The notes beneath the pieces are model-generated. The model made no database searches. It saw only the letters and a program-made list of their open reading frames with translations, and had not been told where the DNA came from. A stretch of 42,951 nt of DNA from Minisyncoccota bacterium (GTDB lineage Bacteria > Patescibacteriota > Minisyncoccia > Phycocordibacterales > Zambryskibacteraceae): the NCBI GenBank assembly GCA_025450175.1, contig JANWHY010000011.1, positions 1 to 42,951 of the forward strand. The letters are read 5' to 3'. The first letter of the stretch is position 1. Every line of letters starts with the position of its first letter. Shown in pieces: positions 4,158-26,602 of the stretch. A program made the position numbers and the translations under genes.

Positions 4158-5369
4158 TTAATTAGAGAATTTTTGGCTACTACTCTGGCGCGAAAGTTCT
4201 TGATGCTTCTTCATCTCTTCTTTAAACTTTTCTTCGTCGAGATTGGGCACAACTTCTTTTATTATTTCTAATGGTAGTCCATAACTCGTGAAGAGGGTGA
4301 ACGGGTCTGCACCTTTCTCTACTTGCTTCAATCCTGCACTTAATGCTTTCTCAAACTTGGCTAGTTCGTCATGAATTATTTCTTTAGTGTTAGGTGCGAA
4401 TGTATAGAGACCCTGGTAACTTGGATGATTGATTACAGCATCTACTATTGGATCAATATTCTTATCACTGACATAAGCGCGGCGCAAAAGTCTTCGTAGA
4501 ATATATCCCCTATCAGTATTGGAGGGGGTCACTCCATCTGCGATCATAAAGACGGAGGTGCGGATGTGGTCTGCCGCGATCCGCGAGCTTGTGACCCCCA
4601 TAAGAGGTGCAAACAAATCTGTTTCGAAAATATTATTCTTACCTTGAAGTGCCATAGTTAAACGCTCAAGTCCTGCCCCCGTATCCACATTTTTTTGTGA
4701 AAGTTTGCCTACAACCTTTCCACCTTTCTTGAGATACTCCATGAACACATCATTCCAAACCTCTACGACTTCCTGCCTCTCATCGGCCACCATGTATTCT
4801 TCTTTAGTCATGTCTCCCAACTTGCCCGTGACATCATAAAACATCTCAGTATCTGGACCACAAGGGCCATCTTCTCCCATACTCCACCAATTCGACTTTG
4901 CCCCCATAAAGTAAATACGATTTTCTGGCATGTACTTCTTCCAGATTTCAAATGCTTCTTCGTCACGAGGAGCATTCTCATCCCCTTCAAAAACAGTTAT
5001 ATAGAGACGCTTTGGATCTAAGCCAAAACCTTCTTCCTTACTCGTGAGAAGTTCAAAGCTCCATTTAATAGCCTCTTCTTTGAAATAATCACCCAATGAC
5101 CAATTGCCAAGCATTTCGAAAAAAGTGTCATGTGTATTGTCTCCAACTTCTTCAATGTCTTGGGTTCGCACACATTTCTGAATATTTACCAAACGCTTCC
5201 CCTGAGGATGCTCATTGCCCATGAGATATGGAACGAGAGGTTGCATACCTGCTGTAGTAAAGAGGACTGACTTATCTCCCTCTGGTATTAGAGAGGCCGA
5301 AGGAATTTTAGTATGTCCTCGTTCTTCAAAAAATTTAAGAAATTTCTCTCGGATTTCTCTGGATTGCAT
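4158..5369 (-). CDS. alaS: alanyl-tRNA synthetase, short form (catalytic and tRNA-recognition regions only)
   Basis: ORF 403 aa; MQSREIREKFLKFFEERGHTKIPSASLIP...FTTAGMQPLVPYLMG...NDVFMEYL...NVDTGAGLERL...RGYILRRLLRRA. Ends EEMKKHQELSRQSSSQKFSN; no editing or C-Ala domain follows. Confidence 0.93.
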   Translation of the reverse strand: MQSREIREKFLKFFEERGHTKIPSASLIPEGDKSVLFTTAGMQPLVPYLMGNEHPQGKRLVNIQKCVRTQDIEEVGDNTHDTFFEMLGNWSLGDYFKEEAIKWSFELLTSKEEGFGLDPKRLYITVFEGDENAPRDEEAFEIWKKYMPENRIYFMGAKSNWWSMGEDGPCGPDTEMFYDVTGKLGDMTKEEYMVADERQEVVEVWNDVFMEYLKKGGKVVGKLSQKNVDTGAGLERLTMALQGKNNIFETDLFAPLMGVTSSRIAADHIRTSVFMIADGVTPSNTDRGYILRRLLRRAYVSDKNIDPIVDAVINHPSYQGLYTFAPNTKEIIHDELAKFEKALSAGLKQVEKGADPFTLFTSYGLPLEIIKEVVPNLDEEKFKEEMKKHQELSRQSSSQKFSN

Positions 5370-11439: not shown

Positions 11440-13620
11440 TCAAGTGACGATACTTATGACCTTATTGGGTACTACTATCACCTTCTTAGGCTCTTTGTCT
11501 AACCACTTTTTCACCTCTGGTAGTCCTAGAGCAAGGCTTTTTATCTCCTCTTCGCTCTGACCCTTCTCTATCTTGAGCGTGGCTCTTAGCTTGCCGTTGA
11601 CCTGGACAGTCATAACAATCTCATCATCCACGAGTTTACCTTCATCATATGTTGGCCACGACTCAAGATGGATAGAATCTTTGTGTCCAAGCTCCGCCCA
11701 AATCTCTTCTGTAATGTGTGGAGCAAAAGGTGCAAGGAGCTTTAGAAGTGTCTTGTATTCTTCTTGTGAAATTTTCTCTTGCTTTTCAAGATTGTTCGCT
11801 AGAATCATCATACTTGAGATGGCAGTATTGAATCCAAGTTTCTCTATATCATCAGAAACCTTTCTTACAGTCTGGTGTAAAATTGCAGGGATTTCGACAT
11901 TGGAATCCGCAATTTTCTCCTTCAATCTCCAAACTCTCTCAAGGAACCGGCGGGGGCCTGCGAGAGCCTCATCGCTCCACGCAATAGCTTGTTCGAAGGG
12001 GCCCATGAACATTTCATATAGGCGTAGAGTGTCAGCGCCGAACTGATCTACAATCTTGTCTGGATTTATCACATTGCCCTTCGACTTACTCATTTTCTCT
12101 CCGCCTTCCGCCAGAATAATACCGTGAGAAGTACGCTTCTTGTAAGGCTCGCTAGTTGGCACTAACTTGAGATCATATAGAAATTTATTCCAGAATCTCG
12201 AATAGAGTAAGTGGAGTACGGTGTGTTCCATACCGCCGTTGTACCAATCGACTCCCATCCAATATTTTAATTTTTCTTTAGAAGCAAATTCTTTATCATT
12301 TTTGTCATCACAATATCTATAGAAGTACCACGAGGAGCCGGCCCAGTTGGGCATAACATCGGTCTCACGTTTAGCATCACCGCCACAGCTGGGGCACTTC
12401 ACACGGACCCACTCACTAATATTGGCTAGTGGAGACTCGCCATCGGGCCCGGGCTCATACTTCTCAACCACTGGGAGTTCTACTGGTAGATCCTTCTCCG
12501 GTACCGGTACCACTCCACACCCGCCCGAACGACCGTCCGGTCGGGCGGGCTTCTCACAATGTATAACCGGAATAGGCTCCCCCCAATAGCGTTGTCGCGA
12601 AAACACCCAATCCCGAAGTTTGTACTTCACCACCTTCTTTCCAAATTCTTCAAAGTCTGCTTTTTTATAATCTATAACAATTGGCAGATTGTACTTCTCA
12701 GCAAAAACTCTATCTCGTTCATCATCAGCTGGCACTCCCATAATTGCACCCGTGCCGTAATCTGAATAAACATATTCAGCTTCCCAAACAGGAATCTTTT
12801 CTTTCGTTGCCGGATTCGTCACGAACTTCCCAGTGAACTTGTCTTCCTTCCCTGAAACCACCAGAAAAGTTGCCCCACGAATAGTATCTGGTCGAGTGGT
12901 AAAAATTTCTATGTCATCAAACTTTATCAACACACCCTCGCTTCTCCCAATCCAGTTTCTCTGCTCTATCTTCACTCTCTCGGGATAATCAACTTCGTCT
13001 AAATCTTTATCCAACCTGTCTGCATACTTGGTTATAGCAAGCATCCACTGCTCTTTCTCCTTCTCTACCACTTCTGTACCACAACGTTCGCACTTACCAT
13101 CGACCACCTCCTCATTGGCCAAACCAATTTTATCCTTCGGACACCAGTTAATTGGCATCTTGGCCTTATAGGCTAGACCGTTTTCAAGAAATTTTAAAAA
13201 GATCCACTGAGTCCACTTATAATACTTGGGATCTGTAGTATTGGTCTCCCTCGCCCAGTCAAAAGAGATGCCAAGAGACTGGATCTGCTTGCGGAAGGTA
13301 TCTGTATTTTCTTTTGTAACTACACGCGGATCCTTGCCTGTCTTCAAGGCATAGTTTTCTGTCGGGAGACCAAAGGCGTCCCAACCTATTGGGTACAAAA
13401 CATTCTTGCCTTCCATTCGACGCTTGCGCGCAATGATATCGAGACCAATATAGGGACGAGGGTGACCCACATGGAGACCGTCACCAGATGGGTAAGGAAA
13501 TTCTATGAGAGCGTAATACTTCTCCTTCTTAGAATCATCTTCTGCATGATAAATTCCCGACTTCTCCCATTCCTCCTGCCACTTAGATTCTATTTCTTTA
13601 GGGTTATACTCATCAGCCAT
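11440..13620 (-). CDS. leuS: leucyl-tRNA synthetase, compact, with in-frame PARPDGRSGG insertion
   Basis: ORF 726 aa; FPYPSGDGLHVGHPRPYIGLDIIARKRRMEGKNVLYPIGWDAFGLP, RQRYWGEPIPVIHCEK, EKMSKSKGNVINPD. Confidence 0.97.
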   Translation of the reverse strand: MADEYNPKEIESKWQEEWEKSGIYHAEDDSKKEKYYALIEFPYPSGDGLHVGHPRPYIGLDIIARKRRMEGKNVLYPIGWDAFGLPTENYALKTGKDPRVVTKENTDTFRKQIQSLGISFDWARETNTTDPKYYKWTQWIFLKFLENGLAYKAKMPINWCPKDKIGLANEEVVDGKCERCGTEVVEKEKEQWMLAITKYADRLDKDLDEVDYPERVKIEQRNWIGRSEGVLIKFDDIEIFTTRPDTIRGATFLVVSGKEDKFTGKFVTNPATKEKIPVWEAEYVYSDYGTGAIMGVPADDERDRVFAEKYNLPIVIDYKKADFEEFGKKVVKYKLRDWVFSRQRYWGEPIPVIHCEKPARPDGRSGGCGVVPVPEKDLPVELPVVEKYEPGPDGESPLANISEWVRVKCPSCGGDAKRETDVMPNWAGSSWYFYRYCDDKNDKEFASKEKLKYWMGVDWYNGGMEHTVLHLLYSRFWNKFLYDLKLVPTSEPYKKRTSHGIILAEGGEKMSKSKGNVINPDKIVDQFGADTLRLYEMFMGPFEQAIAWSDEALAGPRRFLERVWRLKEKIADSNVEIPAILHQTVRKVSDDIEKLGFNTAISSMMILANNLEKQEKISQEEYKTLLKLLAPFAPHITEEIWAELGHKDSIHLESWPTYDEGKLVDDEIVMTVQVNGKLRATLKIEKGQSEEEIKSLALGLPEVKKWLDKEPKKVIVVPNKVISIVT
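12520..12549 (-). repeat. 30-bp palindromic coding element, copy 2 (leuS)
   Basis: Identical 30 nt to copy 1; minus strand encodes PARPDGRSGG. Confidence 0.92.
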
Positions 13621-16370: not shown

Positions 16371-17540
16371 TTATCGATTTCCTTTTGCCCGATTGTGGGT
16401 CTTACACAACATCTCACAATTCTTCGCTGAAGTCGCACCACTCTTGCTCCACGCTGATACATGGTCCGCTTCCATTTCGCCAAAACTCCAAATCTTTTCC
16501 TTATTGGCGTCGTGCCCAATAGCACAATGTGAACAGTTTGATTTCTCTTTGGTTTCAGCTTCCTTAGTTTGTTTTTCGTAAACAGCTCTTTTAGTTGGTT
16601 CGTCAAAAATACGAATATTAAGCAATTTTGTATCGTTTTTACCATCCAATATGTACTCAAAGATTCCCTTCTTATCTTTAACAAAAAAGTCCCCGTAGAG
16701 CTTACGCACATCAGCAGATACTTTGGCTGGATTATATTTCTCTTTACGATATTCCTCGTACAATCGTCCCCATTCAAGACCGCGCATTTCGTTTTCTACA
16801 TCGGTAAATATGCTAGATACCCAATCAATGACAGTGTTAAAATACTTTTTCAACTCATCAATATTTTTGTCTTTGCGATGTTTGCTCATGTAATCGCCAA
16901 TATTACCTTTACTTGTCCAATCCAAAGCACATTCCAAAAACTCCTGCCTGTTGGCACTACCAGATACATAAGCGCTCCATTTCTGAATGTTGGCATTTTG
17001 ACTATTACTAAATTCCTCTTTGGCCTTAGTTACGAATGGACCAGAATATACGGCATTCAGTAATTCTTGATTATTGAGCGGGACACCAGCAATATTTATA
17101 GTCTTAAACCATTCTTTTATCTGGCTTTCTGTTCCCTCACATTCGTAAATAAGCAATTTCGCATCCAAAATTTTAGTTTGTTTGTCTTTCGCCATACCAC
17201 CGAAATATTGTTCCATCCCATTCTCGTCTTTGATAGCAAATTTATCGGTGACAAATCGTCCGAGACTCGTTATACGTTGCTGTCCATCTAAAACTTCAAG
17301 GTTGTCAGCAGAAACTTTATTGAAATAGATTAATCCTATTGGGTACCCCTTCAAAACTGATTCAATGACGGCCATTTCTCTTTTGCCACCGTCAGACGCA
17401 TAAATATAGTTTCGCTGATACTCCGGTTGAATAGTGAGCTTGCCAGACAAGCCAAACAAACCCTTACCCTCAAGCTCGTTATAGACAAAGCCGTCGCAAA
17501 TTTCTTTAACAGCGATGCTGGACTTTAGAGTTGTGTTCAT
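16371..17540 (-). CDS. DUF262 (GmrSD/ParB-like) plus HNH endonuclease protein
   Basis: [11 protein letters not shown]...[17 protein letters not shown] and C-terminal [53 protein letters not shown] (HNH). Start ATG at 17540, next to the methyltransferase stop. Confidence 0.9.
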
Positions 17541-17541
17541 A

Positions 17542-18645
17542 CTATTTTTTCTTCTTATGTCTAATAAAGACTCGCTTGAATGTTTCCTTGCCATTTATGT
17601 ATGACCCGTACCCGTAGACTCCATTCGAGTCTTGGCCAACACCTCGATTTGAACCAAGCAACTCAAATTGATCTGGATTATATTTATCTAGAAAACTGGC
17701 AGGGACCCCCATCACCCCATCATAATCACTAGGAATAGAATCAGTAAATGGGACCTCTATAGCATTATAATTATCATACTTGGTATAAGTTTTTTTGCCC
17801 TTAATCTCTTTGTGTTTGCTGTATTTTAAATTTTCCTCCATCGTCATAAGTGGCAACATTTCGTGACGACGGCCATGATCGAGATTAGTGAACCAACAAC
17901 AATTTCTGAATTTCACTAGACCTGTTTTTGGATCATACACCCCACCAGCATATTCTCTAGTTAAGGGAGTTGAAAAATAGGCATTGCCGGCATTAAAACC
18001 GTTTCCAAGCCACATTTTATTTTCTTTTATCAAAGGAAAAATCTCTTTGTAAATGATGGCATGCAAGTTGCCAATAATCACAAACTTTTTGTTGTAATCA
18101 AAAAGTTGTTTAACATACTCTCGAAACAAACTGAACGGAGGATTTGTTACCACAATATCAGATTGTTTAAGAAGATTTACACATTCATCACTACGGAAAT
18201 CACCCTCGTTTTCTAATGGTGTCCATTCATTGTGTTTGTTTGCCTTTAACTGCTTGGCAACGTCTTTAAGATTAAACTCACCGTCATCATCTACGTCTTT
18301 CACTTCGTTGATAATAAATTTGTTTGCGGTTATCTTAGGACGTCCTTTCGCTTTTGCAAGCGTTTTATCATCACCAAATAATCCTAATTGGGTGTTGGCT
18401 ACTGGTGAAGGCTTGTAGCTGGTGGTAATAAGCTGTTTCAACCCAAGTTTGTTAAAGTTGAGCACAAAATAGCGAAAGAAATTACTTTCGAACGGATCGT
18501 CGCAGTTACAATACACAACTTTGCCACGAAACACATCATGGTCATATTCCAAATATGCCCCGATCTCTTTTTGAATATCGCTGTATTGGGTATAAAACTC
18601 ATCGTTCTTAACCCGTTTTGCATTTGTAAGATTACTGTTTGCCAT
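17542..18645 (-). CDS. adenine-specific DNA methyltransferase, EcoRI family
   Basis: ORF 367 aa; [65 protein letters not shown], catalytic [16 protein letters not shown]. Confidence 0.9.
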
Positions 18646-25223: not shown

Positions 25224-25276
25224 CGATCACCCCTTCTTCCTATATTATATCACGTAATAGATTTATGTCAAATGTG

Positions 25277-25349
25277 TGGACCCTAGCGGATTCGAACCGC
25301 TGACCTCCTCATTGCAAATGAGGCGCTCTACCAACTAAGCTAAGGGCCC
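25277..25349 (-). tRNA. tRNA-Ala (anticodon TGC)
   Basis: Reverse strand GGGCCCTTAGCTTAGTTGGTAGAGCGCCTCATTTGCAATGAGGAGGTCAGCGGTTCGAATCCGCTAGGGTCCA; full cloverleaf, G3:U70, normal TTCGAAT loop, CCA not encoded. Confidence 0.95.
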
Positions 25350-25412: not shown

Positions 25413-25486
25413 GGGCCCATGGTATAGCAGTAACACGCGTCCATGGCATGGACGAGTCCGGGGTGCGACTCCCCGTGGGTCCACCA
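25413..25486 (+). tRNA. tRNA-Ala (anticodon GGC), atypical elbow
   Basis: GGGCCCATGGTATAGCAGTAACACGCGTCCATGGCATGGACGAGTCCGGGGTGCGACTCCCCGTGGGTCCACCA; perfect acceptor (G3:U70), anticodon and T stems, CCA encoded; D loop AGCAGTA and T loop TGCGACT. Confidence 0.85.
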
Positions 25487-25888: not shown

Positions 25889-26602
25889 GTGAGAAAGGTA
25901 GCAATATTTGATATCGACGGAACCATCTTCCGCTCTAGCTTACTTATAGAGTTGGTAAATATTCTGATCGATCGGAAGATTTTCCCAGACAACGCTCGAC
26001 TCGAGTATGGCCGAGAGCATCTTGCCTGGCTAGACAGGAAGGGCTCTTACCACGACTACATCATGGCCGTGGTAAATGTATTTGAGAAATATATTAAGGG
26101 CGTACGCAAAGCTGAGTTAGAGAGTGCTGCCGCACTCATCGTCACCCACCAAGAGAACAGAGTCTACCGCTATACTCGAGATCTCACTCATAAGTTAAAG
26201 AACGATGGTTACTATCTCCTAGCCATCTCCCACTCCCCCAAGCTCGTGGTAGATGGATTCGCCGAGTCTCTACTCTTCGACAAAGTGTATGGGCTTAAGT
26301 ATGAGATTGATGAGAGAAGTATCTTCACCGGAGTCATCTTGGACAAAGAGCTTATCTTCCACAAAGCCAACATTCTGGAACGCGCCGTAACCAAAGAACA
26401 TCTAACTCTAGAAAATTCGGTAGGAGTGGGCGATACTGAGAGCGACATCTCCTTCTTATCCATGGTCGCTAACCCAATCGCCTTTAACCCCAATAATTTA
26501 CTCTACACTCACGCGAAGAGTAAAGGTTGGAAGGTGGTCGTCGAACGCAAAGATGTCATCTACCAACCCGCCCGACCAGACGGTCGTTCGGGCGGGCTCT
26601 AA
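25889..26602 (+). CDS. HAD-superfamily (IB-like) hydrolase, C-terminus encoded by the PARPDGRSGG element
   Basis: GTG start; VAIFDIDGTIFRSSLL...LLAISHSPKLVVDGFAESL...VGVGDTESDISFLSMVANPIAFNPN; ends YQPARPDGRSGGL*. Confidence 0.88.
   Translation: MRKVAIFDIDGTIFRSSLLIELVNILIDRKIFPDNARLEYGREHLAWLDRKGSYHDYIMAVVNVFEKYIKGVRKAELESAAALIVTHQENRVYRYTRDLTHKLKNDGYYLLAISHSPKLVVDGFAESLLFDKVYGLKYEIDERSIFTGVILDKELIFHKANILERAVTKEHLTLENSVGVGDTESDISFLSMVANPIAFNPNNLLYTHAKSKGWKVVVERKDVIYQPARPDGRSGGL
26567..26596 (+). repeat. 30-bp palindromic coding element, copy 3 (HAD gene)
   Basis: cccgcccgaccagacggtcgttcgggcggg; plus strand encodes PARPDGRSGG; 1 nt different from copies 1/2 read on their coding strand. Confidence 0.9.

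Follow-up and report, generated by a model that had tools for sequence, protein, structure and literature searches.

Can a tRNA do its work when both partners of a contact that holds its elbow together have been exchanged? The question is raised by a tRNA-Ala(GGC) gene at positions 25413–25486 (+) of the window, i.e., the whole stretch of 42,951 nucleotides analysed here, which stems from a genome of the family Zambryskibacteraceae (G000 in the following). The gene features A18 and G55 in place of G18 and U55, the latter known in its modified form as Ψ55, and the G18-Ψ55 contact is taught as near universal and is built into tRNA finders, models and engineering rules. Our reading, to which we would assign a probability of about 0.8, is that the gene encodes a working tRNA-Ala(GGC) with an elbow probably held by an alternative tertiary pair, A18-G55, instead of G18-Ψ55.

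The tRNA-Ala(GGC) gene and its genome

ARAGORN placed the gene at the same coordinates as the first-pass annotation, whose description proved correct to the base. The RNA folds into a cloverleaf with stems of 7, 4, 5 and 5 pairs, the anticodon GGC and a single D-stem mismatch (ARAGORN, Rfam), numbered such that A14 falls at 25426, U54 at 25464, the pair G3:U70 at 25415 and 25480 and the encoded CCA end at 25484–25486. Both unusual bases are read directly from the sequence, A18 at 25429 in the D loop AGCAGTA (25426–25432) and G55 at 25465 in the T loop TGCGACT (25464–25470), which thereby becomes a T loop of the UGNRA type (TGCGA, 25464–25468; motif definition in PMC2258182). In terms of the canonical elbow, G18 and U55 are thus missing, while G19-C56 (25430 and 25466) and U54-A58 are retained. 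Compared to a canonical bacterial tRNA-Ala(GGC), with which it shares the cloverleaf, G3:U70, U8-A14, G15-C48, G19-C56, U54-A58 and the CCA end, it differs by A18/G55 instead of G18/U55, a short D loop of 7 nt and an unpaired position 12-23.

Scored on its own against RF00005, a check that the first-pass annotation had proposed, the gene reached 47.0 bits at a gathering score of 29. Its divergent neighbour tRNA-Ala(TGC) at 25276–25349 (−), already described as canonical, indeed carries G18/U55 and reached 73.0 bits. The RF00005 scan of the whole window did not list tRNA-Ala(GGC), presumably as a result of the fast filters. A sigma-70-like site in this region points away from tRNA-Ala(GGC) and is uninformative on it.

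The assembly of G000 comprises 442 kb on 12 contigs, one of which is the window, is 96% complete and gave 42 tRNA matches. Its small size and its gene content, like the first-pass annotation, point to the Patescibacteria (CPR). According to the whole-genome tRNA list, the alanine anticodons GGC and TGC occur once each and CGC does not occur; a canonical GGC tRNA elsewhere, considered at the outset as a sign of a pseudogene, was not found in the whole-genome search, which gave no second GGC tRNA at all. Since 522 of the 808 alanine codons (65%) in the 36 ORFs of the window are GCC or GCU, tRNA-Ala(GGC) is needed, unless tRNA-Ala(TGC) reads all four codons. Two further tRNAs of this genome carry A18/G55: the initiator-type tRNA-Met at C4:7951 (D loop AGCAGTA, T loop TGCAAAT, A1-A72 mismatch) and the tRNA-His at C8:38589–38659 (−), with the D loop AGCAGCA, the T loop GGCAGCA and G-G at 54-58, which was overlooked by ARAGORN, a program biased toward standard T loops.

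The window also encodes an alanyl-tRNA synthetase at 4158–5369 (−) of 403 aa, which comprises the catalytic/recognition part only (Pfam PF01411, positions 1–435 of 552); it is without the editing domain and too short for the elbow-binding C-Ala domain. In a domain search, the tRNA_SAD editing domain was not found anywhere in G000, nor in its relatives G004 and G006, and was present in G010, G014, G022, G024 and G055. Elsewhere in the window, a 36-nt palindromic repeat (CCCGCCCGAACGACCGTCCGGTCGGGCGGGC) lies at 1892–1927, 12520–12555 and 26567–26602, in frame in three ORFs (ribosomal protein S11, leucyl-tRNA synthetase and the end of a phosphatase-like ORF), encoding PARPDGRSGG. At 16371–18645 (−), reading by eye revealed a DUF262/HNH-like ORF overlapping an adenine-methyltransferase-like ORF, perhaps a restriction-modification pair.

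Positions 18 and 55 in relatives and viruses

A BLAST search of 31 family genomes with tRNA-Ala(GGC) as the query gave 12 full-length orthologues, most of them adjoining a divergent tRNA-Ala(TGC). Seven carry A18/G55, six in the genus of the window's genome (G000, G003, G004, G007, G008 and G014) and one in another genus (G022), five carry G18/U55 (G006, G010, G024, G280 and G281), and mixed states were absent among the 12. The occurrence of A18/G55 orthologues in other genomes also disposes of a sequencing error. The tRNA body is identical to that of G000 in G007 and G014 of the same genus, and the A18/G55 orthologues of G003, G004, G008 and G022 show compensated stem changes. Across the eight distinct orthologues, pairing is kept in 94.6% of stem cells, with seven pairs changed on both sides, so that the gene is under selection for structure; the alanine identity pair G3:U70 is GU in all eight. 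The A12-C23 mismatch (25424 and 25434), which the first-pass annotation had listed alongside the elbow change, is present as described, yet position 12-23 is mismatched in all eight distinct orthologues, A18/G55 and G18/U55 alike. It is therefore a separate feature, and its role as a component of the swap was ruled out.

Other isotypes of the family point in the same direction. An initiator tRNA was found in 29 family genomes and is A18/G55 in every one of them, including the three with an altered 54-58 pair, namely G004 (G-G), G015 (A-U) and G020 (C-C). For tRNA-Pro(CGG), G000 and G014 feature AGCGGTA...TTCGA, and G004, G005 and G010 feature AGCAGTA...TGCGA; over the 43-nt stretch compared, from A14 to A58, the two groups differ at positions 18 and 55 only. 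Similarly, tRNA-His is G18/U55 in G010 and A18/G55 in G000 and G014, and further A18/G55 cases comprise tRNA-Ala(CGC) in G004, tRNA-Thr(GGT) in G022 and elongator tRNA-Met in several genomes. Altogether, the distinct parsed tRNAs of the family and related loci amount to 32 with A/G, 93 with G/U and 7 with G/C, with A/U and G/G both at zero.

The same coupling was observed across the phylum. In 240 sampled genomes, tRNAs with a short D loop were retrieved by pattern and then checked for the anticodon stem and U33, which resulted in 11 A18/G55 tRNAs (Cys, Gly, Met, initiator and Ala) from nine genomes of seven families, one G18/G55 tRNA (G156) and no clear pass for A18/U55, where one of nine matches was ambiguous. 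A reversed control pattern gave almost no matches in the 240 genomes. G18/U55 was counted in a 20-genome subset drawn from the sample and related genomes (26 tRNAs, 23 of them in 18 sampled genomes), so that these 18 genomes hold 11, 0, 1 and 23 tRNAs with A/G, A/U, G/G and G/U, respectively.

For viral contigs, the same patterns were applied to IMG/VR together with a full-cloverleaf filter, giving at least 102 distinct A18/G55 tRNAs, 7 with A18/U55, none with G18/G55 and many with G18/U55. The viral A18/G55 tRNAs are mostly tRNA-Met, many with an initiator-like 1-72 mismatch, and most isotypes are represented. ARAGORN, run on all fetched viral loci, counted 151 A/G, 8 A/U, 0 G/G and 1039 G/U; the corresponding numbers are 48, 1, 0 and 867 for viral tRNAs outside the retrieval patterns, and 6, 1, 0 and 514 for loci that were not fetched for A/G. 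Fisher tests gave p = 2.9e-8 for the 18 sampled genomes and p = 1.4e-79 for the viral tRNAs outside the retrieval patterns, values that are descriptive because the counts include related sequences, which inflate p values.

Named examples of A18/G55 include the tRNA-Met of Campylobacter phage F336 (MT863715), the tRNA-Met of EBPR siphovirus 2 (JF412297) and a tRNA of phage CBW1004C-Prop1 (MZ188970) that is without annotation in its record. The phages matched first by BLAST were rejected as carriers, featuring U55 rather than G55 (D3, GodonK, CcrSC, DSS3_MAL1 and XM05, as well as Kassivere, RHph_Y65, DSS3phi2, Philippe and POI1126).

Judged by these sequence counts, positions 18 and 55 form a tertiary pair that covaries between two accepted states, G/U and A/G, with almost no mixed ones, and the coupled change noticed at the locus itself thus holds in bacteria and viral contigs alike, with G55 accompanying A18 and almost never G18. 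The seven distinct viral A18/U55 tRNAs and the single G18/G55 tRNA of G156 are exceptions showing that mixed states are possible. As the swap recurs in the tRNAs of relatives and of phages, the G18-Ψ55 contact appears not to be universal and to have a second working form.

Further variation was noted at these and adjoining positions. G18 occurs together with C55 (T loop TCCGATT) in, e.g., the tRNA-Gly(TCC) and a tRNA-Met of G000 (L012 and L013); seven distinct tRNAs of the family and 11 distinct viral tRNAs show this combination, a third state of the contact between 18 and 55. Pairwise variation is likewise seen at 54-58, the closing pair of the T loop, which occurs besides the standard U-A as A-U (43 distinct viral tRNAs, 3 bacterial), G-G (5 viral, 3 bacterial), A-A (11 viral) and C-C (1 bacterial). 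The loci concerned are the tRNA-His of G000 (L041), the initiators L400, L404 and L407, the tRNA-Asp L383 and viral loci.

TruB and other explanations of the exchange

Evasion could have favoured A18-G55, particularly in phages, if the normal elbow is read by a modification enzyme, a tRNA-cutting defence or the like. The form is common in viral contigs and spread over most isotypes there, and it amounts to about 1% in viral loci not chosen for A/G (6 of the 521 tRNAs that have a purine at 18 together with U or G at 55). However, no elbow-reading enzyme of this kind was identified here, and the form is fixed in cellular tRNAs too, so that we regard evasion as unlikely, if the least unlikely of the alternatives. 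It is compatible with the alternative A18-G55 pair in a working tRNA, as it concerns why the exchange arose and not what it is.

Slightly less credible is a relaxed decay, in which the loss of the Ψ55 synthase TruB freed position 55 and the elbow degenerated with no new pair formed. A check for TruB had been suggested for this locus, and the profile search (TruB_N; 14 of 14 control genomes positive) found the enzyme absent from G000, though the swap occurs with TruB too. None of the seven genomes with an A18/G55 tRNA-Ala(GGC) gave a TruB_N match, and C55 in several tRNAs of G000 and the family would likewise fit such a decay. Nevertheless, an A18/G55 initiator and a TruB_N match are found together in G002, G005, G017, G019, G020, G023 and G024, and strong full-length matches coexist with A18/G55 tRNAs in G055, G227, G246 and G274. 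Within the phylum sample, five of the nine A18/G55 genomes have a TruB_N match, and the proportion lacking one is four of nine vs. 78 of 240 overall. These TruB_N-positive genomes rule out the loss of TruB as a requirement for the swap. Moreover, joint changes of the two partners and an avoidance of A/U and G/G would not result from decay, which is largely refuted by the covariation counts.

The TruB_N matches in the order of G000 are weak and cover only profile positions of about 4–135. As several other genomes feature one strong and one weak match each, the weak matches may represent a second, TruB-like paralogue.

A tRNA reserved for a non-ribosomal job, such as aminoacylation of peptidoglycan or lipids, would have a parallel in the staphylococcal tRNA-Gly set, which has altered D and T loops and has lost the standard loop contacts. 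In the present case the D/T contact is exchanged rather than lost, G000 has no other tRNA with a GGC anticodon to serve translation, and A18/G55 is also found in the initiator and in tRNAs for His, Pro, Cys, Gly and Met, which are necessarily translational; a special function is therefore very improbable. A pseudogene or a sequencing or assembly error, to which the low score of 47 bits and the A12-C23 mismatch could point, is scarcely credible for the sole GGC tRNA of a genome rich in GCC/GCU codons, given its conserved place beside tRNA-Ala(TGC) in relatives, its paired stem changes and the identical swap in the initiator tRNA.

A predicted elbow geometry, its precedents and its meaning

How could A18 and G55 replace the standard contact in a working tRNA-Ala(GGC)? 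In the normal elbow, residue 18 lies between residues 57 and 58 and touches 55, and 19 pairs with 56 (PMC4810234; PMC7912444). UGNRA loops commonly have their loop G paired by an outside A, giving a composite GNRA structure (PMC2258182), and U-turns can begin with G, as in GNRA loops (PMC5311481). On the basis of these two motifs, we consider it most likely that G55-C56-R57, complemented by A18, forms a composite turn of GNRA-like type. In this arrangement, A18 would take the usual place of G18, inserted between R57 and A58, and form a sheared-type pair with G55, a geometry suggested by the loop motifs. G55 would take over the base-to-phosphate contact that U/Ψ55 makes in the normal turn. The proposal also accounts for the joint change of A18 and G55. 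The outer face of the elbow, which is used by the ribosome, RNase P and other enzymes, would be little changed, since G19-C56 and U54-A58 stay. By removing U55, the target of TruB, and G18, the target of TrmH, the swap would leave stability to be provided by the pair itself and not by those modifications.

The resemblance to known UGNRA T loops, or type R1 lonepair triloops, is close in that TGCGA(CT) fits the motif, A18 can be taken as the outside A, covarying with the loop G55 in the family and viral counts, and a composite GNRA turn is predicted. Those described in PMC2258182, however, occur in riboswitches and other RNAs and not in tRNA elbows. A further parallel is offered by eukaryotic tRNA-Ala, for which R15/A48 and A54/A58 pairs not seen in bacteria are described in the part of PMC7566577 consulted here. 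There, too, a tertiary pair of a natural tRNA set is replaced by a purine-purine pair, but at other positions, and 18-55 variants are not mentioned in that part of the source.

The nearest precedent comes from plant viruses, as the consensus of the valine-type tRNA-like structures of tymoviruses (RF00233) features CAGU in the D loop and the T loop UGCAACU, i.e., A18 and G55. For these viral structures, de Smit et al. in 2002 reportedly described covariation of 18-55 between G-U and A-G, with only these two accepted, together with functional tests. Those structures form pseudoknots at the 3′ ends of viral RNAs; the form described here belongs to bacterial and phage tRNA genes with an ordinary cloverleaf and is spread over most isotypes, the initiator among them. 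The gene itself is not such a structure; it scored 19.8 against RF00233, below the gathering score of 40, and features an ordinary acceptor stem on a bacterial chromosome. An elbow pair familiar from viral mimics of tRNA is thus met here in true tRNAs, for which no report of A18/G55 was found in the literature searched, which covers few subscription papers. We lean towards the broader view that A18-G55 is a second widely used natural state of true tRNAs, previously unreported there, with many origins, fixed in the initiator of an apparent Patescibacteria (CPR) family, scattered through most phage isotypes and giving an elbow independent of Ψ55 and Gm18.

In practical terms, A18/G55 genes score lower and some are missed, as in the case of the tRNA-His of G000 by ARAGORN or of an unannotated phage tRNA-Met. 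A second accepted state would turn the conservation of G18-Ψ55 from a fixed sequence into a two-state pairing constraint. Furthermore, A18/G55 tRNAs represent natural material for testing the role of Ψ55, and the A18-G55 pair offers a possible clue to how some bacteria live without TruB.
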